Assembly (NCBI GenBank): GCA_947448725.1
Contig: CANFOM010000009.1
Location: 1-64,000, forward strand
Origin: Bacteroidota bacterium
GTDB taxonomy: Bacteria; Bacteroidota; Bacteroidia; Chitinophagales; Chitinophagaceae
Direction of reading: 5' to 3'
Length of the DNA stretch: 64,000 bases
Below the pieces are notes generated by a model. That model worked only from the letters and a program-made list of their open reading frames with translations, was not told the DNA's origin and searched no databases. The position numbers and the translations under genes were made by a program. Of the stretch, positions 1 through 29,625 are shown in pieces. Within the stretch, counting starts at the first letter, position 1, and each line of letters opens with the position of its first letter.

Positions 1-365
1 ATCGTTATAAAATTATTACCTGCAGCAGCGTCCATTTCAATTTTTAAAAACTTAGGGGTATTTTTCCAATTAATGATAGTAAAGTTACCTACTGTACTTA
101 TGGCTCCCGTATCTCCAATGACTGCAGTAAATAAACCTTGTGCATTAGTGGTGACTCTTCTTGTTTCAACGTATTCAGTTACACCTGTTGAACTGCCTTG
201 TAAAATACTTAAACGAAGACTAATGGGCTGAGAGGCCAATATTATATTATTACTAGTTCTAGCTACTCCTTGAAAATTTAACCCAGTTTGGGCTTGCGCA
301 TTTATAAATACGATACAAAGTAAAAATATAAATAAAACTTTATTCAATTTGTTCAGCTTTTGCAT
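1..365 (-). CDS. Secreted protein, 3' part outside the window; N-terminal FQGVAR-type domain
   Basis: ATG at 365 on the minus strand; translation MQKLNKLNKVLFIFLLCIVFINAQAQTGLNFQGVARTSNNIILASQPISLRLSILQGSSTG... open to the window edge; signal peptide; resembles the N-terminus of the CDS at 19246. Confidence 0.8.
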   Translation of the reverse strand, partial: MQKLNKLNKVLFIFLLCIVFINAQAQTGLNFQGVARTSNNIILASQPISLRLSILQGSSTGVTEYVETRRVTTNAQGLFTAVIGDTGAISTVGNFTIINWKNTPKFLKIEMDAAAGNNFIT

Positions 366-377
366 TTGTATTAACTA

Positions 378-887
378 TTATATTTTTATGATTTTATAAA
401 TTCCTGTTTTTATATTTCCAGCAATAGGTTTAAAGAATACTTTCACATAAAAAACTCCAGAAGGATACTCTTCCAATGAAATATCTTTTTCATAACTATT
501 AAAAATGGTACCTGCCTCCTGAGTTAAAACAATACTAGATTTAACATCTATTAATTGAATGGATAAATTGCCTACTTCAGCAAACCTTGCTTTAAAATGT
601 AAAACACCAGAAGTGGGATTGGGCCCCATGGTAATTTGGCTGCCAAAAACTGCAGGTCCATATTCATTGACTGAGGTAACTAAGCTGGTATTGGGTTGGA
701 GCACCCCTGTATTTAAGGAAAACCCGGGGGCAATAAAAGGTGTTATGGAAACAGATTCGCTAATACTCCATTCCAAGCCTAGATTAGAACCTCCTCCATT
801 ATTTAAGGTGAGGGGTGTGATGGTTTGAGTAAAGGATGAAGAAAATATAGAAATAATTAATAATATAAGAAGGGGCCTCAAAATCAT
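378..887 (-). CDS. Short secreted protein with T9SS type A-like C-terminal sorting domain
   Basis: 169 aa; signal peptide; C-terminal ...MGPNPTSGVLHF...IQLIDVKSSIV...YPSGVFYVKV...GIYKIIKI matches the T9SS CTD pattern. Confidence 0.75.
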   Translation of the reverse strand: MILRPLLILLIISIFSSSFTQTITPLTLNNGGGSNLGLEWSISESVSITPFIAPGFSLNTGVLQPNTSLVTSVNEYGPAVFGSQITMGPNPTSGVLHFKARFAEVGNLSIQLIDVKSSIVLTQEAGTIFNSYEKDISLEEYPSGVFYVKVFFKPIAGNIKTGIYKIIKI

Positions 888-1022
888 CGGTTTTGCCCTT
901 TTATAAATGGGTATTCAAAATTCTAAAAAAATAATTTTTGTAATCAGAATAGTATGGATTAGTAAGGCAAGATTTCGGAAAAATTGACTTTCTTTCAAAT
1001 TTAACAAAGGTTATTACCTATT

Positions 1023-2177
1023 TTATTTCTGTTGGTTTTGAATAAACTGGGTTGGCGTGCAATTATGTAGTTTTTTAAAAGCACTTAAAAAAGTGGTTTT
1101 ATTTGAAAACCCCGCTTCTTCTGAAATTGAACTTAAGGTAAACTTATCTAAATCCCCATTTTGCATCCTTTCCACTATTAGGTCAATTCTGAATTTATTT
1201 ACGAAATCATTAAAATTGATCTTAAAATGTTGATTGATAATAAAGGAAAGTAGCTTCAAAGGGATATTGACTTCGAGGGAGATTTCGTTTATGGTTAAAT
1301 TTTGTTTCAAATAAGGCTTAGTTTTTGTGAAGTAATCAAGAATTATATTGGCCTCTTCTTCATAATTAATCATTTTAATATTACTAACATTTTCAGATTT
1401 TTTCAAATTATGGATATAGGGTAATCCTACTAGTACATTTGGATTTACAACCAAATAACTTGACAAATAAAATAAGCATAAAGCTACTGGAATAGAGCTA
1501 TAGAATACTAAGTCGTCTAATTTTAAAAAATTATTTAAACCGTACAAAAAAATGAATATAAATACAATAAATGAAATTACTGTTAAAGCAATTGAGGTTG
1601 TAAATACTTTAAGCCAATTCAAAATTAATCGTGTGTGAGATTCCTTTATTAAGTCCTGATTATTCTTCTCAAAAGAGAGAATTAGTTTCCATTGTAATAT
1701 TATATATACCAAGCATTGAATAGGCCTTGAAAATTGAATTTTTTCAGATAATATTCCATCTTGTTGGATTAAATTTAATTCAACATTATTTATTACCAGG
1801 TTGACTAGCTTTGACTTTTCAGAATAATTCATCAAATAAAAAGGTAAATAGTTGATTAAAATTAAAACAAAAGGTAAAAAATGGATAAGATCTATTTTTC
1901 TAAATGTTTTTTCATTATTCAAGACGGACTTAACATACAAATAGGCCAATGGAGGAATTAAAAAATTTATTGGCTGGGCTGTTTTATAGATGTATGGAAT
2001 ATAAATAATCCATCCCGAGGTGACCAATAAATAAGATATGGTGCAATAAGCATAACAAATAAATAGTATAGCTAATAATTTGTTAGAAAAAGAAATAAAC
2101 TCTCTGCTTTTTATTAGTAATAAGTAGGCACTGATGATGCAGCAAAAAAAACTTCCAATAAAAATAAAATCGCCCAT
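1023..2177 (-). CDS. AraC-family transcriptional regulator with multi-TM N-terminal region
   Basis: 384 aa; hydrophobic N-terminal half; C-terminal AraC HTH (LSSISEEAGFSNKTTFLSAFKKLHNCTPTQFIQNQ). Confidence 0.88.
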   Translation of the reverse strand: MGDFIFIGSFFCCIISAYLLLIKSREFISFSNKLLAILFICYAYCTISYLLVTSGWIIYIPYIYKTAQPINFLIPPLAYLYVKSVLNNEKTFRKIDLIHFLPFVLILINYLPFYLMNYSEKSKLVNLVINNVELNLIQQDGILSEKIQFSRPIQCLVYIILQWKLILSFEKNNQDLIKESHTRLILNWLKVFTTSIALTVISFIVFIFIFLYGLNNFLKLDDLVFYSSIPVALCLFYLSSYLVVNPNVLVGLPYIHNLKKSENVSNIKMINYEEEANIILDYFTKTKPYLKQNLTINEISLEVNIPLKLLSFIINQHFKINFNDFVNKFRIDLIVERMQNGDLDKFTLSSISEEAGFSNKTTFLSAFKKLHNCTPTQFIQNQQK

Positions 2178-2212
2178 ATTTAAATCTTAATTTAACATTT
2201 AGTTTTGGGGCT

Positions 2213-2617
2213 TTATTTATTCTCGAAATAAGGAATTTCGTCGTTGGATACCGACTCCTTTTCTTGCCAATAAGCAAGGGAAACAATATGACCATCGGCA
2301 GTTTTTAACTGACGGCCAAAAATAGCATTGGTTGCATTAAAACATAAATCGGTTACGCCAATTGTAAAAGTAGTGGGGGCTGGCGGCGTTGCTGGTGCTG
2401 CGGGTGCAGGAGCTGGGGCTTCACCTTCAACTGTTGCTGCCACAGGTGCAGCAGGGGCTGCTTTAGGAGCAGGGCTGTCCACAACTACCACTTGGTATTT
2501 ATTAAATTCTAACAAAGTTTTTAAAAACTGTACACGCGCTGCACTTGCATTTTTTTCTACAATGGCACATTTGCTTGTACCTAAGTCTTCAAATTCGTGG
2601 TTCTTATTAATTGCCAT
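2213..2617 (-). CDS. Conserved-looking hypothetical protein with Ala/Pro-rich linker, probably co-transcribed with nuo
   Basis: 134 aa; starts 10 bp after the nuoN stop; two structured-looking ends joined by APAPAAPATPPAP-type linker. Confidence 0.75.
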   Translation of the reverse strand: MAINKNHEFEDLGTSKCAIVEKNASAARVQFLKTLLEFNKYQVVVVDSPAPKAAPAAPVAATVEGEAPAPAPAAPATPPAPTTFTIGVTDLCFNATNAIFGRQLKTADGHIVSLAYWQEKESVSNDEIPYFENK

Positions 2618-2627
2618 AATACTTTAT

Positions 2628-4037
2628 TTAAATACCAATACTTAATGAGTAAATATAATCGTACACTAAACTTGCTAAACCCGTAATAATAATACCTGCA
2701 ATACAGATATACATAGCCAGCTGTGTAATTTTAGGAATGCTTAATTTTTGAATAGGTGTTTCATTCTCCTCCATAAAAATGGCTTTTACTACTTTTAAAT
2801 AATAGTAAAAAGAAACCACCATATTTAATGAAGCGAATATGATTAAGCCGTAATTGTCTTTAGCGGCACCTGCCATCATTAAAAATAACTTACCAAAAAA
2901 GCCTGCTGTAGGGGGTACCCCTGCAAGTGAAAATAAAGCAATGGTTAATACCCAAGATAAAAATGGGTTGGTTTTATAAAAGCCTTTAAAGTCTGAAATA
3001 TTTTCTTTACCTGCTAAAGCGCTTACCACCGATACCACACCAAAGGCAGCAAGGTTAGAGAATACATATATTAATACAAAGTAAACTAGTGAAGCAGATC
3101 CTGCTTGTGAGCTTCCTGAAATACCAATTAAAATAAAGCCAACTTGTGCAATAGAAGAGAAGGCTAAGAAGCGTTTAAAGTTATCTTGTCTTAGGGCGAA
3201 TAAATTACCAATTAAAATGGTAGCTATAGACAATACCACTAGTACACTATACCATAAAGTAGCAATAGGGGTAAATACTTTATATAAAATGGAAGTGAAA
3301 GTAAATAGTACTGCGGCTTTTGACACCACTGATAAAAAAGCGGTAACTGCAACTGGAGAACCTTCGTACACATCGGCTGTCCATAAGTGAAAAGGAACAG
3401 CAGATATTTTAAAAGCAAACCCAGACACTAATAAGATGAATCCAAATAGTTGCATTGGGTTATTACTTATATGTGCTGTTAAGATATCAAAGCTAAGTGT
3501 GCCACTAGTTCCATATAAAAAAGAAATACCCATTAATAAAATACCTGAAGAAAAAGCAGAGGACAATATTAATTTCATAGCAGCTTCGGATGATTTTCTT
3601 TTAGCTAAATCGAAATTAGCTGCTGCGGCCAAAGGAATAGTACTCATTTCAAGTCCTAGATAAAACATCAATAAGTTGCCGCTCGAAATCATAAAGAACA
3701 TTCCTAACAAGGAAGTAAATAACAGTAAGTAAAATTCAGCCAACTGCTTATGGTTCTTTAACCATGCGTAAGATTGCATAGAGATAAGAAGCATCGCTAG
3801 GTTTAATATATTTTTTTCTAGTACAATAAAGGCATTGCTTGTAAACATGCCATTAAAAGCACCGCCTTCGCTGCTGCCAAATAAGCCTGCAGCTAAGTTT
3901 ATAAATAATAGAACATTGATGATGTTTAAAATACTTTCGTTACTTCTTTCTTTGCCAATTTTAATAAATAGCAATAAGAATATCAATAAGCTTAGTAAAA
4001 GCTCTTGTCTCAGTAATATAAAAATAGTAGATGACAT
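2628..4037 (-). CDS. nuoN: NADH-quinone oxidoreductase subunit N
   Basis: 469 aa antiporter-like membrane protein; last in the nuo order; FKISAVPFHLWTADVYEGSPVAVTAFLS motif. Confidence 0.95.
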   Translation of the reverse strand: MSSTIFILLRQELLLSLLIFLLLFIKIGKERSNESILNIINVLLFINLAAGLFGSSEGGAFNGMFTSNAFIVLEKNILNLAMLLISMQSYAWLKNHKQLAEFYLLLFTSLLGMFFMISSGNLLMFYLGLEMSTIPLAAAANFDLAKRKSSEAAMKLILSSAFSSGILLMGISFLYGTSGTLSFDILTAHISNNPMQLFGFILLVSGFAFKISAVPFHLWTADVYEGSPVAVTAFLSVVSKAAVLFTFTSILYKVFTPIATLWYSVLVVLSIATILIGNLFALRQDNFKRFLAFSSIAQVGFILIGISGSSQAGSASLVYFVLIYVFSNLAAFGVVSVVSALAGKENISDFKGFYKTNPFLSWVLTIALFSLAGVPPTAGFFGKLFLMMAGAAKDNYGLIIFASLNMVVSFYYYLKVVKAIFMEENETPIQKLSIPKITQLAMYICIAGIIITGLASLVYDYIYSLSIGI

Positions 4038-4046
4038 TGTGCTAAA

Positions 4047-5528
4047 TTATTTAAGGGTAAGGGCTTTGTCAATGTTGATCATTAAAAAATCGGTGGTAGG
4101 CATAATTAATTGGTTAATTAAAAACGGTGCTAATCCGATAATTAAAATACCTACTATTAACAAACCTGCTGCTAATTTTTCATTCCAAGTAGCATCAGGT
4201 AATAAGGCGTGTTCGTTAGAAATAGGGCCCATAATAGTTTTGCCTGTAGCTCTTAATATATATACTGCAGTTACTACAATAGAAGCTGCAGAAATTACAG
4301 TGGCTAGGCGATACACACCATCTGGATTTTGCCAGGAACCCATAAATACAGTCATCTCTGCTACAAATCCACTAAAACCAGGTAAGCCTAATGAACATAA
4401 ACCTGCTATTACAAACACCGTAGAAATAAAAGGCATCGCTTTTAACAAGCCCCCTAATTGTGCCACCATTCTGGTATGTGTTCTGGAATAAATCATGCCA
4501 ATAGCGGCGAAAAATAAGGCTGTCATTAATCCATGAGAAACCATTTGTATCACTGCGCCATTAATAGAAGTTTTATTTAACATGCCAATTCCTAATATAA
4601 CAAAACCGCAATGGCTGATAGAAGAGTAAGCATTGATGTATTTTAAATCGGTTTGCATCATGGTGGCGAAGGCTCCATATATAATTGCAATCGTAGCAAG
4701 TAAAATAATGATCCATGAATAACTATGTGCAGCATCGGGCATTAAAGCAGCCATGCGTAAACAACCGTAACCCCCTAGTTTCATAGAAATGCCAGCTAAA
4801 AACATAGAAGCTGCAGTAGGAGCTGAAGCGTGACCATCGGGTACCCAGGTATGAAAAGGAAATAAAGCTGCAAAAATGCCAAAGCCTAAGAATACAAAAG
4901 GAAAGAAGAATTTTTGTACGCCTAATGAAATGCCCATTCTGCCTATTTCTACCATATCAAAAGTGTGTGTATTGTAATAGATGCCCATTAATCCAACAAA
5001 TACCAAAGCCGATCCTGCCATCAACATTAAAGCCAACTTCATAGCACTGTTTTCTTTTTTACCACTTCCCCAAATACCAATTAATAAGAATTTAGGAATC
5101 ACCGCTACTTCTAAAAAGAAAAACAAAGTAAATAAATCTAAAGAAATAAAGAAACCGTAAGCGCCCATGCTTAATAAAACTAGCAAGAAAAAATATTCTT
5201 TACTTAGTTTTTCCATGGTCCAGGAAACCAAAATACCTGCCACTACAATAAGCGAGGTTAATAATATCATTGCCAGTGAAATACCGTCTATTCCAATATG
5301 GTAATTAATATTTAATGCTTTAAACCAAACAGTATTGGATTCAAATAAATGGGTAGCAGTATTGCCTGCAGCTCTTTGATCCATATACAATTTCAATAAC
5401 CAGCCTGCTGTACCCAATTGGGCCAATGATCCCACTAATCCAATAACTCTTATTTGCGCTAATTGCTTGCTCATTAATATGAGTAAGGCAGTTAGTAAAG
5501 GCAATAAGATTAACAAAGATAAATTCAT
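4047..5528 (-). CDS. nuoM: NADH-quinone oxidoreductase subunit M
   Basis: 493 aa; FPFHTWVPDGHASAPTAASMFLAGISMKLGGYG motif; operon context. Confidence 0.96.
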   Translation of the reverse strand: MNLSLLILLPLLTALLILMSKQLAQIRVIGLVGSLAQLGTAGWLLKLYMDQRAAGNTATHLFESNTVWFKALNINYHIGIDGISLAMILLTSLIVVAGILVSWTMEKLSKEYFFLLVLLSMGAYGFFISLDLFTLFFFLEVAVIPKFLLIGIWGSGKKENSAMKLALMLMAGSALVFVGLMGIYYNTHTFDMVEIGRMGISLGVQKFFFPFVFLGFGIFAALFPFHTWVPDGHASAPTAASMFLAGISMKLGGYGCLRMAALMPDAAHSYSWIIILLATIAIIYGAFATMMQTDLKYINAYSSISHCGFVILGIGMLNKTSINGAVIQMVSHGLMTALFFAAIGMIYSRTHTRMVAQLGGLLKAMPFISTVFVIAGLCSLGLPGFSGFVAEMTVFMGSWQNPDGVYRLATVISAASIVVTAVYILRATGKTIMGPISNEHALLPDATWNEKLAAGLLIVGILIIGLAPFLINQLIMPTTDFLMINIDKALTLK

Positions 5529-5537
5529 ATAAATATT

Positions 5538-7505: not shown

Positions 7506-7510
7506 AATAA

Positions 7511-7825
7511 TTAAAATTTCATTTCTGTTGCATCGTCTACATCAATGGATTGATGACTGCGGTATAAATTAATAATAATGGCAATGGCCACTGCTGCTTC
7601 GGCTGCAGCAATAGTGATGATAAATAATGAGAAAAATAAACCGTCTAATTTATCGGGGAATAAATATTTATTAAAAGCAACAAAATTAATATTTACACTA
7701 TTTAACATGAGCTCAATGGACATGAGCATGGTTATAATATTTCTTCTGGTAAACAATCCATACATACCTATAAAAAACAAGGCCGTGCTTACAAAAAGAA
7801 TATGGGTTAAGGGTATTTCGTTCAT
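7511..7825 (-). CDS. nuoK: NADH-quinone oxidoreductase subunit K
   Basis: 104 aa; RRNIITMLMSIELMLNSVNINFVAF motif. Confidence 0.96.
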   Translation of the reverse strand: MNEIPLTHILFVSTALFFIGMYGLFTRRNIITMLMSIELMLNSVNINFVAFNKYLFPDKLDGLFFSLFIITIAAAEAAVAIAIIINLYRSHQSIDVDDATEMKF

Positions 7826-7829
7826 GGTA

Positions 7830-8848: not shown

Positions 8849-8867
8849 GTTTCTAATTCATTTAATA

Positions 8868-9944: not shown

Positions 9945-9996
9945 GCTTAATCTATTTATATATAGGTCTAACTAAAATTCATTTATCAACTCCTCC

Positions 9997-11133: not shown

Positions 11134-11140
11134 GTGCCTA

Positions 11141-16079: not shown

Positions 16080-17252
16080 ATGCTTTTATATCTAACCATA
16101 TTGGGGTTTTTAGTATCATTTTTGATCTTAATAAATTTAAGAACATCAAATAAAGCGAATCTGTACTTGTTCTTTTTCTTTTTAATTAATAATATATATT
16201 CCTTAGCCCATTATGCGGCTTTATATTCTAGCAATAAATATTTTATTGCCATTATGTTAGTTCACTTCACCCCTTTTTATTTATTATTAGGGCCATTTTT
16301 TTATTTTTATGTAAGGGGCTTAGTGTATGATGATCATAAGTTATATAAGAAAGATATTATTCATTTCATTCCCGCTATTATTATTTTAATCAATATATGT
16401 CCTTATCTTTTAAATAGGTTTGATCAAAAGTTATTTTTTGCAGATGAAGTAATGAGAGAACCATTTAATATGTTTAAATATAATTTTCTATTTCTATCGC
16501 CTTCGGCAAGTTTTATTTCTAGGCCCATTTTTGCTATTTCATATGTCATTCCGGCGGCAGTTTTAATTTACAAAAAAAGAATAAATGAAAATTACAATAA
16601 CATGCAATCGAGGCTTATTTATCGGTGGTTAATTTCACTCATAGCTATGTCTTTGCTTCTTTATTTTGCTTTTTTAATGTTTTCTATTATTGGATACGAG
16701 ACAAGGAACACCCATGAAACTGAAGTTAGAAGCGAGTATATTTTATATGCAACAGGGCTAGGACTAATATTGTTAAATTTTTCATTGTTATTTTTCCCCA
16801 ATATTTTATATGGATTACCGCAATTAGATTATGCAATACTTAAACCAAAACTGAATTTAGAAGTATCAAATGAAATACTCAATAAAGAGGCAAAAAGTTT
16901 TGAAATTTCTGAGGATAAAATAGAGCTCCTCAAATCTAAGATTGACATCTATTTGCAAGGCTTTCCCTATCTTAATAAAAATTTTACACTTTCAGTGATG
17001 TCAGCTGAAACGGATATTCCTGCACATCACTTATCTTATTATTTAAATGAACACTTGAAAATTAATTTTAATACATGGAAAAACGATTTGAGAATAAACC
17101 ATGTAATTGAATTAATAAAAAGTGGTTCCTATGAAAGGCTCACTTTAGATGCTTTATCTAAGCAATCGGGATTTGGATCAAGAAGTAGTTTTATAAATGC
17201 CTTCAAATTGAAAACTGGGCTGACCCCTTCTGAATATTTACAAAATTTGTAA
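16080..17252 (+). CDS. AraC-family transcriptional regulator with multi-TM N-terminal region; paralogue of 1023..2177
   Basis: 390 aa; TM-rich N-terminal half; C-terminal HTH LDALSKQSGFGSRSSFINAFKLKTGLTPSEYLQNL; shared GLP linker and LKINFN motif. Confidence 0.88.
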   Translation: MLLYLTILGFLVSFLILINLRTSNKANLYLFFFFLINNIYSLAHYAALYSSNKYFIAIMLVHFTPFYLLLGPFFYFYVRGLVYDDHKLYKKDIIHFIPAIIILINICPYLLNRFDQKLFFADEVMREPFNMFKYNFLFLSPSASFISRPIFAISYVIPAAVLIYKKRINENYNNMQSRLIYRWLISLIAMSLLLYFAFLMFSIIGYETRNTHETEVRSEYILYATGLGLILLNFSLLFFPNILYGLPQLDYAILKPKLNLEVSNEILNKEAKSFEISEDKIELLKSKIDIYLQGFPYLNKNFTLSVMSAETDIPAHHLSYYLNEHLKINFNTWKNDLRINHVIELIKSGSYERLTLDALSKQSGFGSRSSFINAFKLKTGLTPSEYLQNL

Positions 17253-17264
17253 TGTGTATCCTTT

Positions 17265-17505: not shown

Positions 17506-18303
17506 ATGATCAATTTAAAACACTTGTTAGTTTGCTTTTGCATTATAGGGTCTATTCAGGTTCAAGGGCAGCAAATAGTAAATCTAAAAAAGCAAAGCAC
17601 TCAATCCTTAGATAGCGCTTATTTGCTTCATCCTTTTAAGGATAAGATTCAAGCTATAAAGTTAGAAATTAAGAAAGAGCTGGGTAAATTATTCGTAGAT
17701 TTTAATGACAATAATGTTTATCTATTGTCTGGTATTGGCTTATCAAAGCAATTTATTAATGCAGGAAATTACAATTCTAGTTTTAATTATGATTTAGCAA
17801 ATAATAAATCTGCTTTTAAACCTGGTTATTACCTTGGTTTTAGAGTGGATGGTGTATATAAAGAAAAACATCTTTATTCCTTTGCTGTTAGTTTAGATAG
17901 AATTTCATCTGGTACTGAATATGCTAATTCGACTAGTTTACAACCCTTTATCGGTAATTTTTCTAGATTCAAGGCCGATGATCAATTTTTAAATTTTAGC
18001 CTAGCTGCTCATTATAAAAAATTACTACCATTTAAACCTAATATAAGATCTAATTTTTATATAGTAGGTGGTCCAAGTATCGATACTCGTCTTTCGGGAC
18101 AAAGTTCAGATAACTTAGTAAATAATAATTACCGCCGATTTATTTTAAGAGCTGATTTAGGTATTGAATACGAGAACAAATCTTTTTACACCTTATTTAT
18201 GCATTATAAACAAGGTGTGACCTCTTTTACAAAATCGCCCGTCTCAACCCATCTTAATTCACTTGAAATAGGTTTATTGATGAAAGCAAGTGATTTGTTC
18301 TAA
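17506..18303 (+). CDS. Outer-membrane beta-barrel-like hypothetical protein
   Basis: 265 aa; signal peptide (IQVQGQQ); alternating hydrophobic/aromatic strands. Confidence 0.7.
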   Translation: MINLKHLLVCFCIIGSIQVQGQQIVNLKKQSTQSLDSAYLLHPFKDKIQAIKLEIKKELGKLFVDFNDNNVYLLSGIGLSKQFINAGNYNSSFNYDLANNKSAFKPGYYLGFRVDGVYKEKHLYSFAVSLDRISSGTEYANSTSLQPFIGNFSRFKADDQFLNFSLAAHYKKLLPFKPNIRSNFYIVGGPSIDTRLSGQSSDNLVNNNYRRFILRADLGIEYENKSFYTLFMHYKQGVTSFTKSPVSTHLNSLEIGLLMKASDLF

Positions 18304-18314
18304 AATAAAATAAT

Positions 18315-18734
18315 ATGAAAAACTTTTTAATAATTATCTGTGCTTTGATATTTCTTTTTTCTTCTTGTAATAAAGACACCACTGGTGCAGAAATTAATTT
18401 GGCCTATCAAATGGTTTCAGATAAAATTTGGTATTTGGACTACAATCAAACCATTACTTCCACTGGAACTACCACAAAAACTTATATCGGGCAATCTACC
18501 TATTTTATAAAATTTTTAAAAAACCTCACTACTGTAGATTCTGATGGCATATCAGGAAGCTATTCTGTTGTAAAAGTGAATAGCAAATTAGAAATTCATG
18601 TTCTAGCCAAAACAGCTGGAGCTAATTCGTTAGAGTATATCTATAATATTGAAACTTTAGGCGCAAATAACATGATTTTATACTATGTAAATTCTGGAAA
18701 TACTATTAAATTTTTTTATAGCACTAGTCATTAA
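18315..18734 (+). CDS. Putative lipoprotein
   Basis: 139 aa; N-terminal MKNFLIIICALIFLFSSC lipobox. Confidence 0.75.
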   Translation: MKNFLIIICALIFLFSSCNKDTTGAEINLAYQMVSDKIWYLDYNQTITSTGTTTKTYIGQSTYFIKFLKNLTTVDSDGISGSYSVVKVNSKLEIHVLAKTAGANSLEYIYNIETLGANNMILYYVNSGNTIKFFYSTSH

Positions 18735-18735
18735 A

Positions 18736-19230
18736 ATGAAGAAACCTTATATTTTATTAATTATTGTTATGATGCTTTGCAGCACTGCTCAAGCTCAAAT
18801 TGTTATGAGTAGTGTTGGCATGATTGGCGCAGCTTTAGGAACCGTAAGCGCATTAAATTTTAAAAGTTCGGCCACTTGCATAGATGTGCAATCGGGGGTA
18901 GCCGTGTTAAATGGACCTCGAGGTAATGGTGAGTTTTCTTTTAGTTGCGAAGTGGCAATGAATTTTAATAGTTTAGGTATTAAATTATTCCCCAATCCGG
19001 TAAATAGCAATACAAAAGTAAAGTTTATAAATACCCCCCCTTTAACCGAACAATTTAATTTACAAGTATATACGTTAGAGGGACAATTTATTAGTTCTAA
19101 AAAAGAAACTGGTTATAATTTATTTCAAGGAATCACTATGGACCTAGGTTCCCTAACCTCCGGTATTTATATTTTAAAAATAGAATCTACTCAATTTGTA
19201 GATGTTATCAAATTTATTAAAGCGAATTAG
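18736..19230 (+). CDS. Short secreted protein with T9SS type A C-terminal sorting domain
   Basis: 164 aa; signal peptide; LFPNPVNSNTKVKF...LQVYTLEGQFI...LTSGIYILKI...VIKFIKAN. Confidence 0.85.
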   Translation: MKKPYILLIIVMMLCSTAQAQIVMSSVGMIGAALGTVSALNFKSSATCIDVQSGVAVLNGPRGNGEFSFSCEVAMNFNSLGIKLFPNPVNSNTKVKFINTPPLTEQFNLQVYTLEGQFISSKKETGYNLFQGITMDLGSLTSGIYILKIESTQFVDVIKFIKAN

Positions 19231-19245
19231 AACAATAGTTAACTT

Positions 19246-22200
19246 ATGAACAAATCCCTCTTTACTAAAATCTTTATCGGAAACTGCTTAATAATAAGCT
19301 TTTTTTTCTCCAATAAATTATTTTCACAATCTCAAGGTACTGGTATATTTTTTCAGGCAGTTGCTAGAGATAATTTTGCAAATCCGGCTAAGGATAGAAA
19401 AATTTATATTCAATCAACTATAATTCAAGGCACTGAGAATGGTACTAAAGCCTTAATTGAAGAACATCAATCACAAACAGATCCTACAGGTGTTTTTAGT
19501 ATAAGTTTAGGTCAGGGAACTAGAAAAGGTGGAACGGCCGCAAACTTAGCATCTATTGATTGGGTAAAAGGTCCTTACTTTTTAAATTTAAAGATTGCGA
19601 TTAAGCCTATTGCACCCGTTACTAATTGGGATTATACTAAAGAATTGATTGATTTAGGGACTACTCCTTTTGGAACGGTGCCTTATGCTTTATATTCTGC
19701 AAGTTCTGGTGCTTTAGATAGTAAACTAAGTATTGGAGATACTTCTAAAATGTTGGCTATTTATGCAAAAGCACAAGCCGTAAATTCATTAGCTACTCAA
19801 GTTGTAACAAAATTATCTGCAACAGATACAGCAACTATGTTGGCGCCTTACGCAAAAATGGTTAAAGCAATGGTTGCATCTAATATTACTTCTTTAACAG
19901 CGGCTGCTATTAATGCTGGTTTAGATGCAAAGGTAAATATTGCAGATAGTGGAGTAATATACATAACTCCTCAGCAATTAAAAGGAGTAAAATTTGATAC
20001 TACAAGCTTGATTGCAAGAGTAGATACAAAAGTAAGTATTGCTGATAGTGGAACAACCTATGTTACTCCTATGCAATTAAAAGGCGTAAAATTTGACACG
20101 ACAAGTTTGATTGCTAGAGTTGATAAGAAAATAAGTTATTCGGACAGTATCACTCAATATGTTACTCCAGCACAATTGGCTTCAAAAACATTTGATAGTT
20201 CCGCTATTTATAATCAATTGGCCACAAAACTAAATAAATCTGATACTCTAACCCTATCTAACAGGATTAATTTAAAAGCAGCAAGTGCAGATGTAAACAG
20301 CGGATTAGCTTTAAAATTAAATAAAACGGATACCAGTTATTTATTACAAAAAGCAGACACAACGACGTTATCTAATAGAATTAATTTAAAAGCAGCAAGT
20401 GTAGATGTAAGTAGCGGATTAGCTTTAAAATTAAATAAAACAGATACTAGTTATTTATTACAAAAAGCGGACACATCGACGTTGTCTAATAGAATTAATT
20501 TAAAAGCAAATACAACTGATGTTACCACTGGATTAGGTTTAAAGTTAGATGCCGATCAAAGAGGAGTAGCAAATGGAGTTGCTAGCTTAGATATTAATTC
20601 GAAAGTGCCAGCTGCGCAAATTCCAGTTATTTCATTTGCTAGTGCCAGTGTTGTAGCCAACGAGGCTGCAATGTTGGCATTGTCAGGAGCTATTGTTGGA
20701 AGCATTGCGATTAGAACTGATGCCAATAAGAATTTTGTTTTAAGTGCTGCCGGTCCTTCAGTTCTTTCTAATTGGGTGGAATTGGCTACGCCCACTTCTG
20801 TCACAAGTATCAATGGATTTGCTGGCCCATCTGTAACTGTAACGACCAATGATATTAATGAAGGGGCTACTAATAAATATTATACCGATAATAGAGCAAG
20901 AAATGCAATAAGTGCAAGTGCACCATTAAGTTATAATGTTGCTGCTGGTACTTTTTCTATTTCAGTGGCATCAACAACTACTAATGGATATTTAAGTTCG
21001 TCAGATTTTACCATTTTTAATAATAAACAAAACGCATTGGTAGCAGGAACTGATTATGCAACTCCTTCTGGCAATATAACTGGTAATGCAGCTAATGTAA
21101 CAGGAGTGGTATCAATAATTCATGGCGGCACAGGAACTAGCACAGCAACTGGTGCGCTAATCAATTTAGGCGCAGAATCTACGGCCAATAAAAGCACAGC
21201 AATAGATCTGGGAAATGCTAGGCCTAGTGATACTTTATTCCCCTCTCAAAAAGCAGTAAAAACATATGTAGATGCGCAAACGGCAGCAGCTGGTGTGTTA
21301 GATGGAAGTATTACTAATGCAAAATTAGCAGGAAGTATTAATTCGGATAAATTATTAGGAAGCATACCTGCTTCTAAATTAGTTGGAACAGATATTACAA
21401 CAGTTGGCACCATCACTTCAGGAATATGGAGTGGAACAACTATTGCCTTAGCAAATGGAGGAACAGGAGCCACTACAGCAGCAGGAGCAAAAACTAATTT
21501 AGGATTGGTCATTGGTACTGATGTTTTAGCTTATAGAACTTTTGGTACTGCAGCGAATAATAATACAGCAGATTTTGAAGTTCCATTAACTTTTACTTCC
21601 CCTTTATCTAGAGCAACTAATACAATTTCTATTCCTGCTGCTACTACTTCAGTTAATGGTTATTTAAGTAGTACAGATTGGACAACTTTTAATGCAAAAC
21701 AAACTGCATTAACTGCGGGTTCTGGTATTTCAATAAGTGCAGGAACTATTTCGGCAACAGGATTGACCACAAGTAATTTATCTAGTACAGCAGGTATTAC
21801 CAATTCACAATTAGCAGGAAGTATAGATGATTCAAAATTAGCAATAATAAGCACGGGAGGTAAAGTTGCTAATTCTGCAACTACAGCCACTAATGCAAAT
21901 ACAGCAAGCGCGATTGTTGCAAGAGATGCTAGTGGAAATTTTTCTGCAAACATTATTACAGGAACATTGTCTGGAACTGCAAGCACAGTAACTACTAATG
22001 CAAACTTAACAGGTGATGTTACCAGCGTTGGAAATACAACCACAGTTGGAAAAATTAATGGAACTTCACTCTCTGCATTAACAACAGGAATTTTAAAAAA
22101 CACCACATCAAGTGGGGTGCCAAGCATCGCAATTGCAGGAACAGACTATCAAGCACCAGTTACATTGACCACTACAGGAACTTCAGGCGCCTCTACTTTT

Positions 22201-25200
22201 ACAAGTAATACATTAAATATCCCAACCTATACATTGGCTGGATTAGGTGGAATAAGTTTATCAGGTTTAAGTGCTACTGCGCCATTAAGTTATAATAACA
22301 CTTCGGGTGAATTTTCAATGCCTGCAGCAACAACAAGTGCAAATGGATATTTGAGTAGTGCAGATTGGACAACTTTTAATGCAAAACAAACTGCATTAAC
22401 TGCGGGTTCTGGGATTTCAATAAGTGCAGGAACTATTTCAGCAACAGGATTAACAACAAGTAATTTATCTAGTACAGCAGGTATTACCAATGCGCAATTA
22501 GCGGGAAGTATAGATGATTCAAAATTAGCAATAATAAGCACGGGAGGTAAAGTTGCTAATTCTGCAACCACAGCCACCAATGCAAACACCGCTAGTGCGA
22601 TTGTGGCAAGAGATGCTAGTGGAAATTTTTCTGCAAATATTATTACAGGAACTTTATCAGGGACTGCAACTAATGTTTCGGGTATTGTTGCGATAGCAAA
22701 TGGAGGAATAGGATTAACAAGTGTTGGTACTAATGGTCAAGTATTATCTTCTAATGGAACAAGTATTGCTTGGTCAAACCCTGCAGCAACTGGAATCACT
22801 GCTATTAATGGCATCACTACAGGAACACAAACTTTAACAGTTGGAACAACAGGTACAGCACCTGCATTTAGTTCATCTTCCTCAACGCATACTTTAAATA
22901 TACCAATGGCGTCCACTACAAGTGTGACTGCAGGTTTATTAAGTAAATCAGATTATGATGTATTTAATGCAAAGCAAACTGCATTAACAGCAGGATCTGG
23001 TATTTCAATAAGTGCAGGAACTATTTCAGCAACTGGATTAACTACAAGTAATTTATCTAGTACAGCTGGAATTACTAATACGCAATTAGCAGGAAGTATT
23101 GCAGCTAGTAAATTAATTGGAACTGATATTACAACAGTAGGTACTATTACTTCAGGAGTTTGGAGTGGAACAACCATTGCATTAGTGAACGGAGGTACTG
23201 GTGCAACTACACCAGCGGCAGCTAGAACAAATTTAGGTTTGGCAATTGGCTCAGATGTGCTTGCTTATAGAACTTTTGGTACAGCAGCAAATAGTAGCAC
23301 AACGGATTTTGTTACAGCGAACGCATCAATAACTAGTGCTACAAAAACAAAACTTACCTATGATGCAAAAGGATTAATAACTGCAGGGGCAGATGCCACT
23401 ACTGCAGATATTGCACCAAGCACAGATAGAAATTATGTTACAGATGCACAAAAGTCGGGCGTCTTATCAAATACATCAGGAATAAATACTGGCGATGAAA
23501 CTGCATCTACAATCAAATCAAAATTAGCCATCACCAACTTAAGTGGAAGCAATACTGGTGATCAAACCATTACTTTAACAGGCGATGTGACAGGAACTGG
23601 CACAGGAAGTTTTACATCTACAGTTACTAAAATTAATGGTACATCATTATCTACATTAGCAACAGGCATATTAAAAAATACAACATCTACAGGGGTGCCA
23701 ACAATAGCAATTGCGGGAACAGATTATCAATTACCTATTTCTTTAACAACTACTGGTAGTTCAGGTACAGCTACATTTACAAGTAACACATTAAATATTC
23801 CAACATACACATTAGCTGGATTAGGAGGTATAGGATTATCGGGTTTAAGTGCTACTGCGCCATTAAGTTATAATAATGGAACGGGTGCGTTTTCAATACC
23901 TGCAGCTACTTCAAGTGCGAATGGTTATTTAAGTAGTACAGATTGGTCAACGTTTAATAATAAACAAGCTGCATTAACAGCTGGAGCTGGATCTGGAATT
24001 TCAATTAGCGGAGGGACAATTTCAGCAACAGGACTAACTACAAGCAATTTATCAAGTACTGCAGGTATTACTAATGCTCAATTGGCAAGTAGTACAACTA
24101 CATTAGGTTCAACATTAATGTCATTAGGTGGGACTGTAACTTCAGTTACTGGTTTAAGTTCTGTTAGCTCAACTGGATTTACTGGTGCCTTAACAGGAAA
24201 TGCATCTACAGCTACAACATTAGCAACGGCAAGAAATATTAATGGAACTGCATTTAATGGAAGTGCAGATATTACAATTATTGCAGATGCTGGAACATTG
24301 TCTGGTACAACTTTAAAATCAACAGTTATTAGTTCAAGTTTAACTGGGGTTGGAACAATTACTTCAGGAACTTGGAATGGTTCGACATTAGCTGTTGCGT
24401 ATGGAGGGACTGGTGTAACAACATCAACTGGATCTGGAAATGTTGTATTATCTACTAGTCCAAATTTAGTTACGCCAAATTTAGGGACACCATCAAGTGC
24501 AACTTTAACCAATGCAACTGGTTTACCAATTGCTACTGGTGTTAGTGGTTTAGGAACAGGAATAGTATCATTTTTAGCAACGCCTACAAGTTCAAATTTA
24601 ATTAGTGCTGTAACCGATGAAACTGGAACAGGAGCGTTAGTATTTGCCAATACACCAACATTAGTTTCTCCAGTAATTGGAGCTGCAACAGGAACTTCAT
24701 TAAGTTTAACTGGAACTTTATCTGCAGGTACTTCATCAGTTACAAGTTCAACTATTAGTGGTAATGAAACAGTGGGTGGAACACTAGGTGTGACTGGTGC
24801 AACCACATTAACTGCATTAACGACAACAGGCGCTGCAACATTTAGTAGTACAGTTAAAATATCAACTGGCGCAGCAGCAGGTAAAGTTTTAACATCGGAT
24901 GCAAGTGGTAATGCAACATGGCAAAATACTGGCGGTACAGTGGTTACGATGAGTGCAACTGGAACGGCAACTTCAACTGCCACCTATATTATATTTACTG
25001 GTGCAACCGCTTCACAAACAATAACTATTCCTTCTGCAGTTACATTAGGTGCAGGTAGAGAAATTACCATTAAAAATGTGGCCAGCGTTACTGTGAGTAT
25101 TGCATCTGCCGCAGGGTATTTGATACAAGATAATTCTACACTTACATCTGCCACTGCAGCACTTGGTATTGAACCTTCAAACAACTGGATGAAACTGGTT

Positions 25201-25242
25201 TCTGACGGAACGAACTGGTATATATTCCGAGCATTATTCTAA
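19246..25242 (+). CDS. Giant (1998 aa) secreted repeat protein with phage-tail-fibre-like motifs, putative adhesin
   Basis: Signal peptide; FQAVAR N-terminal domain; 33-aa and 38-aa tandem repeats; DINEGATNKYYTDNRARNAIS, GGTGATTAAGAKTNLGL, GYLSSTDWTTFNAKQTALTAGSGISISAGTISATG and STSPNLVTPNLGTPSSATLTNATGLP motifs, which recur in phage tail fibre proteins. Confidence 0.85.
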   Translation: MNKSLFTKIFIGNCLIISFFFSNKLFSQSQGTGIFFQAVARDNFANPAKDRKIYIQSTIIQGTENGTKALIEEHQSQTDPTGVFSISLGQGTRKGGTAANLASIDWVKGPYFLNLKIAIKPIAPVTNWDYTKELIDLGTTPFGTVPYALYSASSGALDSKLSIGDTSKMLAIYAKAQAVNSLATQVVTKLSATDTATMLAPYAKMVKAMVASNITSLTAAAINAGLDAKVNIADSGVIYITPQQLKGVKFDTTSLIARVDTKVSIADSGTTYVTPMQLKGVKFDTTSLIARVDKKISYSDSITQYVTPAQLASKTFDSSAIYNQLATKLNKSDTLTLSNRINLKAASADVNSGLALKLNKTDTSYLLQKADTTTLSNRINLKAASVDVSSGLALKLNKTDTSYLLQKADTSTLSNRINLKANTTDVTTGLGLKLDADQRGVANGVASLDINSKVPAAQIPVISFASASVVANEAAMLALSGAIVGSIAIRTDANKNFVLSAAGPSVLSNWVELATPTSVTSINGFAGPSVTVTTNDINEGATNKYYTDNRARNAISASAPLSYNVAAGTFSISVASTTTNGYLSSSDFTIFNNKQNALVAGTDYATPSGNITGNAANVTGVVSIIHGGTGTSTATGALINLGAESTANKSTAIDLGNARPSDTLFPSQKAVKTYVDAQTAAAGVLDGSITNAKLAGSINSDKLLGSIPASKLVGTDITTVGTITSGIWSGTTIALANGGTGATTAAGAKTNLGLVIGTDVLAYRTFGTAANNNTADFEVPLTFTSPLSRATNTISIPAATTSVNGYLSSTDWTTFNAKQTALTAGSGISISAGTISATGLTTSNLSSTAGITNSQLAGSIDDSKLAIISTGGKVANSATTATNANTASAIVARDASGNFSANIITGTLSGTASTVTTNANLTGDVTSVGNTTTVGKINGTSLSALTTGILKNTTSSGVPSIAIAGTDYQAPVTLTTTGTSGASTFTSNTLNIPTYTLAGLGGISLSGLSATAPLSYNNTSGEFSMPAATTSANGYLSSADWTTFNAKQTALTAGSGISISAGTISATGLTTSNLSSTAGITNAQLAGSIDDSKLAIISTGGKVANSATTATNANTASAIVARDASGNFSANIITGTLSGTATNVSGIVAIANGGIGLTSVGTNGQVLSSNGTSIAWSNPAATGITAINGITTGTQTLTVGTTGTAPAFSSSSSTHTLNIPMASTTSVTAGLLSKSDYDVFNAKQTALTAGSGISISAGTISATGLTTSNLSSTAGITNTQLAGSIAASKLIGTDITTVGTITSGVWSGTTIALVNGGTGATTPAAARTNLGLAIGSDVLAYRTFGTAANSSTTDFVTANASITSATKTKLTYDAKGLITAGADATTADIAPSTDRNYVTDAQKSGVLSNTSGINTGDETASTIKSKLAITNLSGSNTGDQTITLTGDVTGTGTGSFTSTVTKINGTSLSTLATGILKNTTSTGVPTIAIAGTDYQLPISLTTTGSSGTATFTSNTLNIPTYTLAGLGGIGLSGLSATAPLSYNNGTGAFSIPAATSSANGYLSSTDWSTFNNKQAALTAGAGSGISISGGTISATGLTTSNLSSTAGITNAQLASSTTTLGSTLMSLGGTVTSVTGLSSVSSTGFTGALTGNASTATTLATARNINGTAFNGSADITIIADAGTLSGTTLKSTVISSSLTGVGTITSGTWNGSTLAVAYGGTGVTTSTGSGNVVLSTSPNLVTPNLGTPSSATLTNATGLPIATGVSGLGTGIVSFLATPTSSNLISAVTDETGTGALVFANTPTLVSPVIGAATGTSLSLTGTLSAGTSSVTSSTISGNETVGGTLGVTGATTLTALTTTGAATFSSTVKISTGAAAGKVLTSDASGNATWQNTGGTVVTMSATGTATSTATYIIFTGATASQTITIPSAVTLGAGREITIKNVASVTVSIASAAGYLIQDNSTLTSATAALGIEPSNNWMKLVSDGTNWYIFRALF
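19930..20226 (+). repeat. Three tandem 99-bp/33-aa repeats (KV[NS]IADSG..Y[IV]TP.QLKGVKFDTTSLIARVD)
   Basis: Read directly in the translation; third copy degenerate. Confidence 0.85.
20254..20550 (+). repeat. Tandem 114-bp/38-aa repeats (LSNRINLKAAS.DV.SGLALKLNKTDTSYLLQKADT.T), about 2.6 copies
   Basis: LSNRINLK starts at 20254, 20368 and 20482. Confidence 0.88.
21649..21981 (+). repeat. Long intragenic direct repeat, copy A (pairs with 22336..22668)
   Basis: About 333 bp near-identical to copy B at constant offset 687 bp, no indels seen. Confidence 0.9.
22336..22668 (+). repeat. Long intragenic direct repeat, copy B (pairs with 21649..21981); shorter related copies at about 22969-23100 and 23950-24085
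   Basis: Same reading frame; offset 687 = 3 x 229. Confidence 0.9.
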
Positions 25243-25294
25243 TAGTAAATAAAAAACAAAAGATATATTTTAAAATATTAAGCATAGTTAAGAA

Positions 25295-25516
25295 ATGGAA
25301 AATTTAACAATTACAAGCCCCTTTACAATTCTTACTAGAAGAGAAAAAGAGGTATTGATTTTAATGTTGCAGGGGGCGCAAGTAAAAGAGATTAGTGCTT
25401 CTTTAGAATTAAAGTCTAATACCATATCTACCTTTAAGAAGAGTATACTTTCCAAAACGGGGGTAAGTAACAATATTGAGTTATTTAAATTAGCTCAAGA
25501 GCATAATATAGTATAA
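25295..25516 (+). CDS. Stand-alone LuxR/GerE-type HTH protein (73 aa)
   Basis: LTRREKEVLILMLQGAQVKEISASLELKSNTISTFKKSILSKTGVSNNIELFKLA matches the GerE HTH pattern; no receiver or other domain. Confidence 0.82.
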   Translation: MENLTITSPFTILTRREKEVLILMLQGAQVKEISASLELKSNTISTFKKSILSKTGVSNNIELFKLAQEHNIV

Positions 25517-25517
25517 A

Positions 25518-26126
25518 ATGAAAAAAATTATTTTCATAATAAATATCTTGTTAGTTGCTTCTTTTGCGGAGGCGCAAACAGGTATTGGTACAACAACGCC
25601 TAATGCTTCTGCGAAATTAGATGTTAGTTCAACAACACAAGGCTTTTTACCGCCTCGTGTTACTTTAACAGGAACAAATGACAATACAACAATAAAAAAT
25701 AGTGCAGGAACATCAATAACACCTGCAACAGGTTTGTTAGTTTACAATACTGCAACTACCACCACGGACCCTTTCAGGGTAGTTCCTGGATATTACTATT
25801 ATAATGGAACAACTTGGATATCTATTTCCAATGGATTAATTATAGACAACAGTAAATCTGCAGGATTTACATTGGCTTCTACGGATAATAATAAAGTATT
25901 TTTAATCACTTCGACAACTGATATAACAATTACAGTTCCAAATACTTTACCAGTTGGATTTAGTTGTCAAATAATTCAAGGTGGGGCTGGTCTTATAACT
26001 TTATTAGGTTCCAGTGTGACACTAAATTCCTCAAATGGTTTAAAAACAAGAGCCACCAATAGTGTAATTGGACTTGTTATGAATACAGCTACAACTGGTT
26101 TTGTTATGGGAGATACTATTTTTTAA
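25518..26126 (+). CDS. Secreted tail-fibre-like surface protein (TGIGTTTPNASAKLDV type)
   Basis: 202 aa; signal peptide; N-terminal region similar to 27718..29625. Confidence 0.75.
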   Translation: MKKIIFIINILLVASFAEAQTGIGTTTPNASAKLDVSSTTQGFLPPRVTLTGTNDNTTIKNSAGTSITPATGLLVYNTATTTTDPFRVVPGYYYYNGTTWISISNGLIIDNSKSAGFTLASTDNNKVFLITSTTDITITVPNTLPVGFSCQIIQGGAGLITLLGSSVTLNSSNGLKTRATNSVIGLVMNTATTGFVMGDTIF

Positions 26127-26128
26127 TA

Positions 26129-27706
26129 ATGCATAAATATTTTTTCATATTATTTTTTTCTCTCTGTTCAATTTTTTTGAATGCCCAAAGGATATTTCAA
26201 AATATTGCACTTAGAAAACCAGTAGGAACGAGCAATCAAAATTTTGCATATACAGGAGCAATTCAACAATTTATTGTTCCCAATAGGGTAACTTCTATTC
26301 AAGTAAATGCCATAGGTGCAAAAGGTGGAACAGGAGCAAGAGGTCAAGTTGGAGGTGCTGGTGCAAATATTACAACCATATTAAATGTTACACCTGGTCA
26401 AGTTTTATATATTGTAGTGGGCGGATTTTCTGGACAATCTGCAACTGCAAAATATGGTTTTGGTGGAATTGGTGGAACAGGCACGAACTATGGGGGAGCT
26501 GGTGGTGGATTATCTGGAGTCTTTACTTCAGCAACACCTGCTATTTCCAATGCATTAGTTGTTGCTGGTGGAGGCGGTGGCGGTTCTGGAATTTCAACTG
26601 GTTCCGACTATACAGGAGGTAATGCTGGTAATACTTCAACAGGTTCATCAAGTAATGGGAACGAGCCAATTGCATCGCAAAATGAATATATCAAAAATGG
26701 CAGATATCAATATGGTTATTTAGCAACAACAACTGCTGCAGGACTAGGTGGAGAAGCTTTTGACGCAGGTACAGGTGGTGGAAATGGTAGTGATATAAAT
26801 GGTGGAAGTGGCGGATCTGATGTAGGAGTAAGTGGATGGAATGGTGGCGGTGGAGGAGGTGCAGGTTTTTATGGTGGCGGTGGAGGTACTGGCGGTGGTG
26901 CAGCAACTGGTGGTGGCGCTGGTGGGGCAACAAAATCAACTGGTTTAGTTAGCACTTATGGAACAGCAAACGTGACAGGGGACGGAAGTGTGTCCATTAC
27001 TTGTATTAATAATTCAGGATTGGTATTTCAATTAGATGCAAGCAATAGTTCTAGTTATTTGAGCTCAGCAACTAGTGTTTGGAAAGATTTAATAGGCACA
27101 AATGATGTAACATTATACAATACCCCAACTTTAAGTTCATCCATTGGATTAACATTTAATGGAACAAATCAATATGGTAGCATACCTTCAGTAAGTGGGG
27201 TGACTGATTTTACCAATACCCAAAAATATAGTGTTGAAATATGGTTTAGACCTTCAAATGGGCAAGTAAACTCAGGTGAAGCAGAATTATTGGAAAAGTG
27301 GAATAAATCTGGCGAATCTAAATATCCATTCACAATTCGTTATAATGAAGGTGCTAGTAGTATGGCAGTAGCATGTTATGATGGTTCCACTTTTCGATTT
27401 GTTAGCATAAGTGGATTTCCAGTAAATACATGGAAGCAAATAGTTGCTGTATTTGATTTTGTGGGCAAGACACTTAATGTATATAGAGATGGTGGTAATG
27501 TTGTTAGCGTAAGCTTATCAGGCATCAATCAAGTTAGTAATACAAGTCCAATTGCAATTGCATCTAGGCTTAATTCATCTGGCGGACCTGAATCTGCTCT
27601 TATGTTTAAAGGAACTATTGGAATTATTAGAACTTATAATATTGCATTATCATCAGATCAAGTTTTGCAAAATTTTAATGCAAATAAAACAAGATTTGGT
27701 TTATAA
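26129..27706 (+). CDS. Secreted Gly-rich protein with C-terminal LamG/concanavalin-like domain
   Basis: 525 aa; Gly-rich region (GGGGGGSG..., GGGGGGAGFYGGGGG); LamG-like SGLVFQLDASNSSSY...YSVEIWFRP...WKQIVAVFDFVGKTLNVYRDG...NFNANKTRFGL. Confidence 0.8.
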   Translation: MHKYFFILFFSLCSIFLNAQRIFQNIALRKPVGTSNQNFAYTGAIQQFIVPNRVTSIQVNAIGAKGGTGARGQVGGAGANITTILNVTPGQVLYIVVGGFSGQSATAKYGFGGIGGTGTNYGGAGGGLSGVFTSATPAISNALVVAGGGGGGSGISTGSDYTGGNAGNTSTGSSSNGNEPIASQNEYIKNGRYQYGYLATTTAAGLGGEAFDAGTGGGNGSDINGGSGGSDVGVSGWNGGGGGGAGFYGGGGGTGGGAATGGGAGGATKSTGLVSTYGTANVTGDGSVSITCINNSGLVFQLDASNSSSYLSSATSVWKDLIGTNDVTLYNTPTLSSSIGLTFNGTNQYGSIPSVSGVTDFTNTQKYSVEIWFRPSNGQVNSGEAELLEKWNKSGESKYPFTIRYNEGASSMAVACYDGSTFRFVSISGFPVNTWKQIVAVFDFVGKTLNVYRDGGNVVSVSLSGINQVSNTSPIAIASRLNSSGGPESALMFKGTIGIIRTYNIALSSDQVLQNFNANKTRFGL

Positions 27707-27717
27707 AAATTATTAAA

Positions 27718-29625
27718 ATGAGAAAACTACACTTATTCATATTCTTTTTTTATACTTTTTTGTATACCAATGCACAAACCGGCATTGGCACTCCAACACC
27801 AGACGCTTCTGCGAAGCTAGATGTATACTCAACGAATAAAGGCTTTTTGCCACCTCGTGTTACATTAATTAGTAGCACTGATAATACAACTATCCCAAGT
27901 CCTGCAACAGGTTTGTTAATTTACAATACTGGTAACAATGCCGGACTGGTTGCAGGTTACTATTATTGGAATGGAACTAGTTGGGCAACTATTGCAACTG
28001 CTAGTGGCTCTGGAGTGAGTGCTTCTTTTTTAAGGGGATCAAGAAGTTCTGGACAAACAGGATTGACAAATGGTGGAACAGTTATATTCACGCAAGTTGA
28101 TAATACTGCAGGACAAGAAATGTCTTTAAATACTTCAACAGGTCAAATTACATTAGCTGCAGGAAGAACCTATCGTTTAGTTGCACAAGTGCCAAATTAT
28201 CAAACATCTAGTGGGGATGCTAGATTACAACTTGCATGGTATAATGAAACTTCAGGAGCATATATTGGAAGTACTAGTAATGCTTATCCACCTGGAAGTG
28301 GTGCATCTTATGGTGCAACAGCAGGTTTATCTGAAACAATAATAACCACAACAGCTACAACTGTTATTTCTTACAGAATTGTACAACTTTCATCAGCAAC
28401 TCAATTAGGAGGTAGTTCTGACTTTCCAGTAGCGGGTTCTTACCCTTGGTTTGAAGCACAAGTTATTTCAGGTAACGCGCCAGTAACAGGGCAGAGTGTG
28501 GATTATATTCAAGCATCATTATCTACCAATCAAGCATTGTCTGCTGCTGGAAATATAATTTTTAATACCTCATCGGGTGCAGGAATTACAATAACAAGTG
28601 GGGGTTTTAATTTGATCGCTAATAAAACATATAAATTAGAAGCCGCATTGGGGGGTGCTTCAACTGGGTATGGATATTATGCATGGGTAGATAATGCGAA
28701 TACTATTTTGCCTGGTGGCAGTATTGGAGTTGTAATGAAAGCCGGCTCTGCATTTACGGATGCCCCACAGGACAAGGCGATTGTTTATTATACGCCTACA
28801 GTAAATACAACAGTCTTTTTAAGAGTAATAAATGTTTCAGGAACAATTACCGCCTATGCGCCTTCTGCTGCAAGTGGTTATTCCAGTAGTTGGGCAAGTA
28901 TTCAACAAATTGGTTCCTCTGCAATCATAAATCCTTGGACTTTATCTGGTACAAATACTTTCAATACAACTGGAAATGTAGGAATAGGAACATCATCACC
29001 TACTACTACATTAGATGTAAATGGTTCATTACAGGTAAGTGGTTCAACTACTTTAAAAAGTAGTTTAAATATTGGAACTGGTGTCGGAGCAGAGGGTGGT
29101 GAAATGCAATTAGCATATGCGCAAACGGGTAATACTTTATCAGGAACTGCAGTTGTTGTTGATGTTTATCAAAATAAATTAAGAATTTTTGAGAGTGGCG
29201 GTAGTACTAGAGGTGTATTTCTTGATTTATCTAAAGCACCAAGTGGTGTAGGGGGTGAGTTGCTAACAAAAGCAAGCGGATTTGTAAATGCAGGAGATTA
29301 TATTACCTTAGGTAATTTAAAGGCTACAATACCAACTTCAGGAAATAGAAGTTTACAACTTGCAACAGTGTCAGGTTCCTATTCGGTTTATGGTAGTGGT
29401 GTGTACTCATATGGTGGAGTTGGAGGATCAACTATTGATTTTAGTAGCCCTAGATCAATTACAACAACGCCAGCATATATAAACTCAACATACACTTTTG
29501 GTACAGCAGGTGCAACTGATTCTTGGTTATTAACTGATACAAGTTCAACTATCGCTTGGAGAATAACTGTAATTATTGGCTCAGGGTATAATAATAACTT
29601 CATCTCCATCGAAAGGCTCCTATAA
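27718..29625 (+). CDS. Secreted tail-fibre-like surface protein
   Basis: 635 aa; TGIGTPTPDASAKLDVYSTNKGFLPPRVTL...PATGLLIYNT; internal NVGIGTSSPTTTLDVNGSLQVSG motif. Confidence 0.78.
   Translation: MRKLHLFIFFFYTFLYTNAQTGIGTPTPDASAKLDVYSTNKGFLPPRVTLISSTDNTTIPSPATGLLIYNTGNNAGLVAGYYYWNGTSWATIATASGSGVSASFLRGSRSSGQTGLTNGGTVIFTQVDNTAGQEMSLNTSTGQITLAAGRTYRLVAQVPNYQTSSGDARLQLAWYNETSGAYIGSTSNAYPPGSGASYGATAGLSETIITTTATTVISYRIVQLSSATQLGGSSDFPVAGSYPWFEAQVISGNAPVTGQSVDYIQASLSTNQALSAAGNIIFNTSSGAGITITSGGFNLIANKTYKLEAALGGASTGYGYYAWVDNANTILPGGSIGVVMKAGSAFTDAPQDKAIVYYTPTVNTTVFLRVINVSGTITAYAPSAASGYSSSWASIQQIGSSAIINPWTLSGTNTFNTTGNVGIGTSSPTTTLDVNGSLQVSGSTTLKSSLNIGTGVGAEGGEMQLAYAQTGNTLSGTAVVVDVYQNKLRIFESGGSTRGVFLDLSKAPSGVGGELLTKASGFVNAGDYITLGNLKATIPTSGNRSLQLATVSGSYSVYGSGVYSYGGVGGSTIDFSSPRSITTTPAYINSTYTFGTAGATDSWLLTDTSSTIAWRITVIIGSGYNNNFISIERLL

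Follow-up and report, generated by a model that had tools for sequence, protein, structure and literature searches.

The window analysed here is a 64-kb stretch of DNA taken from the beginning of contig C9 (base 1 onwards) in the 2.32-Mb genome (38 contigs) of a freshwater bacterium closely related to public Sediminibacterium records. It contains two cassettes, which match public Sediminibacterium and Chitinophagaceae records and each of which combines an AraC-family regulator, a short protein bearing a T9SS CTD and a fibre protein with an N-terminal FQxVAR domain. All of the open reading frames of both cassettes were found at the positions given by a first-pass annotation of the sequence, and the features are as follows:

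1..365, minus strand: N-terminus of the left FQxVAR (MAT-like) fibre, with signal peptide and conserved N-domain; continues at C26:1-2376, 863 aa, Peptidase_S74 end
378..887, minus strand: short T9SS-CTD partner, 169 aa, WSxGE/TGxLQP type
1023..2177, minus strand: left AraC-family regulator, ~5 hydrophobic (TM) segments, C-terminal HTH_18
16080..17252, plus strand: right AraC-family regulator, ~6 hydrophobic segments, C-terminal HTH_18
17506..18303, plus strand: predicted outer-membrane barrel, 265 aa, no family match, conserved in right-type cassettes
18315..18734, plus strand: predicted lipoprotein, 139 aa, conserved in right-type cassettes
18736..19230, plus strand: short T9SS type A CTD partner, 164 aa, CxDVQxG type
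19246..25242, plus strand: right FQxVAR (MAT-like) fibre, 1998 aa, tail-fibre/virion-structural PHROG matches in the shaft and near the C-terminus, without CTD
25518..26126, plus strand: secreted tail-fibre-like protein, 202 aa, without FQxVAR domain
26129..27706, plus strand: secreted protein, 525 aa, virion-structural-like C-terminal region
27718..29625, plus strand: secreted fibre-like protein, 635 aa, last same-strand gene before MarC
29626-30204, minus strand: MarC

The domain assignments previously made for both cassettes held. HTH_18 is found in each regulator and Por_Secre_tail in each short protein: the right one scores 41.5 bits for this Pfam model and 41.2 bits for TIGR04183 (cut-off 23), above the cut-off, and the left one, which has a 64% identical paralogue on contig C7, scores 26.6 bits for Por_Secre_tail, just under the Pfam cut-off of 27. 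To the left of the window, an exact 149-bp overlap, absent from the other copies tested, joins C9 to contig C26 and completes an 863-aa FQxVAR fibre with a Peptidase_S74 tip, so that the unrelated architecture once envisaged for the left protein does not apply. As for the right side, the block had been drawn as far as position 29625; the cassettes do lie within it, but 25518-29625 holds three further secreted tail-fibre-like genes without FQxVAR domain.

The module had also been called duplicated, which is only loosely right. The FQxVAR N-domains of the left and right cassettes share 28% identity and their AraC proteins 30%, the two short T9SS proteins have no mutual match at E<=0.01, and the cassettes sit in separate clades, both having closer paralogues at other loci of the genome. 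These divergences rule out a recent duplication and, judged from their sequences, the two cassettes are old paralogues.

The FQxVAR domain occurs ten times in the source genome, split pieces counted: in the left (with C26) and right cassettes of C9, twice on C7, and on C8, C21, C27, C10 and C19. Altogether, the genome has at least nine FQxVAR-fibre loci, both window cassettes among them. C7 carries a left-type set (AraC, T9SS, fibre) and, no more than 22 bp further along the same strand, a right-type set (barrel, lipoprotein, T9SS, fibre). Contigs C8, C21, C12, C32, C9 and C26 all break within family members, with 149-bp ends common to pairs, and near-identical family copies probably defeated assembly at these breaks. 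At the phylum level, the domain is present in 60 of the 297 genomes drawn. Among the cultured carriers is Aquirufa antheringensis 30S-ANTBAC (locus L056). In one genome (G025), two loci (L214 and L221) consist of short FQxVAR genes (320-400 aa), about six per tandem array, that have no T9SS partner. Chitinophagaceae-like cassettes are also present on contigs with the titles Rhodobacteraceae and Comamonas (L034 and L040), which are probably mislabelled or contaminated MAG bins.

Pfam holds no model for the FQxVAR N-domain, and a KdgT match on the left N-domain, below cut-off, was taken as chance. Concerning NCBIfam, 39 of 42 FQxVAR members match Bdello_MAT_N (NF053851), the best at 6.8e-11, with scores below cut-off: none of the 21 genomes has an N-domain above the curated 60-bit threshold, the best listed score being 39 bits, and no match was found in the 14 control genomes. 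The AlphaFold model of the N-domain is a confident beta-sandwich (pLDDT 86), for which the PDB gave neither a sequence match nor a fold match at E<=0.001, the best viral ones being weak hits to generic tail proteins of beta-sandwich type, at a TM of about 0.5. The absence of a significant PDB match agrees with what has been stated for the N-domain of the Bdellovibrio bacteriovorus MAT fibres, namely that it has no PDB homologue (PMC10769870). By homology of sequence, the FQxVAR N-domain, which comes right behind the signal peptide, is distantly related to the MAT N-domain; since it falls below the curated cut-off, the fibres are not filed in the Bdellovibrio MAT subfamily.

MAT fibres (PMC10769870; NF053851) resemble the FQxVAR fibres in the beta-rich N-domain that directly follows the signal peptide, in their long shafts, in their S74 or non-S74 variable tips and in the many paralogues per genome, and the FQxVAR fibres, which share the N-domain superfamily, may well work like MAT fibres. 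In contrast to MAT, FQxVAR fibres belong to Bacteroidota, have a dedicated T9SS-CTD partner and, in part, a membrane AraC, and carry other tips (Lcl_C, FISUMP, YadA head). The MAT-type fibre design is already known; the dedicated T9SS partner is described in none of the papers found. No name had been known for the module at first: its fibre end can now be named through the relation to MAT, but a T9SS-coupled MAT or tail-fibre system has no description in the literature searched (partial coverage).

The tips of 62 fibres include 14 Lcl_C, 8 S74, 5 BclA_C and 3 collagen modules, besides others, while those of the source genome are S74, Lcl_C, YadA_head and Fib_succ_major. The left fibre has a catalytic-type SDRRDK motif at residue 743, of the SDxxxK form that S74-type MAT fibres are reported to have (PMC10769870). 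The tip of the C8 fibre matches the trimeric C-terminal domain of Lcl (8q4e) with an E-value of 5.7e-15; this trimeric tip domain is shared with Legionella Lcl (PMC11162425), whose N-terminus, shaft and secretion route are different. S74, YadA_head, Lcl_C, collagen and BclA_C are all trimer-associated modules, recognised here by sequence, and they point to fibre C-termini that are a mosaic of trimer-forming tips; the long fibres are probably three-stranded, with interchangeable tips. Matches to tail and virion-structural PHROG families were also found in shafts and tips.

Several fibre loci have features of their own. The shaft of the C19 fibre (L017, 5149-8268) is made of repeats of about 13 residues (SDTASMLTTRLKV) matching Lysostaphin_N, and its T9SS partner is divergent and lies beside a response-regulator gene. 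Downstream of the C10 fibre (L016, 3-11093), three long genes have a PTHIDSLGKGGFMVMP-type N-terminus in common and resemble the FQxVAR fibre at their C-termini, i.e. the same tip on a different base. C10-type fibre or T9SS genes repeatedly have, immediately upstream, a gene for a 120-130-aa protein with the motif FDHHFFxxKYYLHKSA, which may be a small regulator of HTH type (L016 of C10, 11593-11985, minus strand; L170, 1196-1588; L179, 1294-1656; L183, 1230-1622).

The short partner protein consists of a signal peptide, a conserved segment of ~60 residues and a type A CTD, with little else. SprA, the T9SS translocon gene and the T9SS component searched, is present in the source genome (2247 bits). 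As for the fibres themselves, a CTD was found in none of 84, 63 of them with complete ends, and a second set of 117 fibres gave one weak CTD match, on a truncated ORF.

In a collection scan that covered 79 loci of named genomes, with a bias towards the FQ(A/G)(V/I)A motif, a short (about 150-215 aa) T9SS-CTD gene lies directly upstream of 66 of the 77 FQxVAR genes with visible upstream DNA, mostly at a distance of -4 to 60 bp; three of the eleven unpaired genes come after another FQxVAR gene. Short T9SS-CTD proteins account for only 2 of the 522 other ORFs of the same loci, and the pairing is far above chance (Fisher 1.6e-73, a value inflated by shared ancestry). When divergent subfamilies are included, 63 of 112 genes in the genomes of relatives are paired, 13 come after another fibre gene and 36 do neither, which indicates that the N-domain alone needs no such neighbour, at least in cis. 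Of 12 genomes belonging to other families of the order, 9 contain one pair or more, 21 of 28 single best loci per genome are paired in the phylum-wide draw, and one pair was found in a Balneolales record (L091). The two families thus recur together in other genomes, as had been anticipated.

A tree of 194 N-domains shows how this pairing is distributed: among the 80 rows of the left clade, 76 are paired and none is unpaired, the C8 and C21 pairings being deduced from contig ends, the right clade (49 rows) has 32 paired and 16 unpaired ones, and the deeper groups are mixed. In the source genome, seven intact short T9SS-CTD genes were found and each of them sits at a FQxVAR locus; this holds for every short protein with a TIGR04183 match, the other five matches being in large proteins (735-1328-aa frames), and likewise for the remaining short T9SS-CTD proteins (C9 left and two on C7). 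Partner and fibre distances are correlated (rho 0.77 for all pairs and 0.69 for those of the left type; none of 500 permutations as high), and the partner subtype tracks the fibre clade, with no swaps seen. This matched evolution supports the proposed role of the partner, but co-inheritance of linked genes could give the same pattern.

Of the three genes originally grouped as a regulated module, the constant core is the pair formed by the short T9SS gene and the fibre gene, and the AraC gene is a clade-specific addition. One clade has a multi-TM AraC gene in 26 of its 29 loci, at a distance of 35-183 bp upstream of the T9SS gene, vs. none of the 24 loci of the C27-type group. In the right-type loci that have it, AraC precedes the barrel and lipoprotein genes, which recur too; most cassettes are without barrel. 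No shared Bacteroidota-type promoter or AraC operator motif was seen between araC and the T9SS gene. The description as regulated suits part of the family, where the membrane-embedded AraC probably controls expression (the left clade and some right-type cassettes).

On balance, we lean towards reading the cassettes as genes for chimeric, trimeric fibre adhesins of MAT-like type, exported or anchored by a dedicated T9SS partner. The fibre would reach the periplasm via its Sec signal peptide and trimerise by its shaft and tip modules, with the S74 chaperone in the case of the left protein, the conserved FQxVAR N-domain holding the fibre base. The fibre itself lacks a T9SS signal, and the short upstream protein is therefore assigned the role of a T9SS passport or anchor, which would bind the N-domain and pass through SprA/PorV. 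The outcome would be a fibre on the cell surface, tip outward, with expression set by the AraC regulator in the membrane where one is present. A narrower version, in which the small CTD protein escorts the assembled CTD-less trimeric fibre through the type IX translocon via the MAT-type N-domain, is put forward tentatively, as plausible rather than probable.

An AlphaFold model of the T9SS protein and the N-domain, fused by in-frame read-through, reached a pTM of 0.41 with low confidence for the ~60-residue segment, so that no contact between partner and N-domain is predicted. This would suit a short protein that is co-regulated with the fibre and secreted independently, for example as a second adhesin, a coat or a signal, the fibre using another route such as the barrel and lipoprotein, which recur in many right-type loci, and the 36 unpaired fibres fit as well. 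We nevertheless regard such independence as doubtful: the left clade shows no visible exception to the pairing although a barrel is missing from most cassettes, partner subtypes go with fibre clades, and the short CTD proteins of the source genome are found only beside FQxVAR fibres. It is unlikely that the short protein serves just as a base on the cell surface, attached by the T9SS sortase route and catching fibres exported otherwise, since a separate fibre export route would be needed and none is constant in the cassettes, even though type A CTDs normally stand for PorV-carried release or attachment to LPS (PMC10994853) and the MAT N-domain was proposed to bind some surface element (PMC10769870). 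Remnant prophage tail-fibre genes, which the PHROG matches might evoke, are a highly improbable source and were rejected in view of the Sec signal peptides, the conserved T9SS partner, the neighbouring genes (nuo, TonB receptor, kinase and MarC, none of them phage) and the dozens of conserved chromosomal loci.

If the proposed export or anchoring by the T9SS partner is correct, T9SS biology would gain a CTD-less cargo carried on a CTD-bearing escort, undescribed in the literature searched, and a large class of "tail-fibre-like" proteins of Bacteroidota would be explained. The conserved pairing suggests a possible answer to how these fibres leave the cell and stay attached. For MAT, the surface partner of the N-domain was stated to be unknown (PMC10769870); as its FQxVAR homologue has a constant genetic partner with a secretion/anchoring signal, the question becomes testable by one gene deletion. 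Should the escort be true, Bacteroidota would have in it a plug-in platform for mosaic adhesins, and it would hint at the kind of element to which a MAT N-domain docks.

A large surface adhesin beside a dedicated T9SS-related gene is also known from the type B CTD adhesins with their PorP/SprF-like shuttle (PMC12618676). In that system, however, it is the adhesin that bears the CTD, with the shuttle as its partner, whereas the FQxVAR adhesin has no CTD and its small partner bears one of type A. One locus of the source genome (L028 of C32, 2-12167) resembles a T9SS adhesin locus of type B: a large adhesin-like ORF (2558 aa) comes before genes for a PorP/SprF-like barrel and a protein of 1187 aa.
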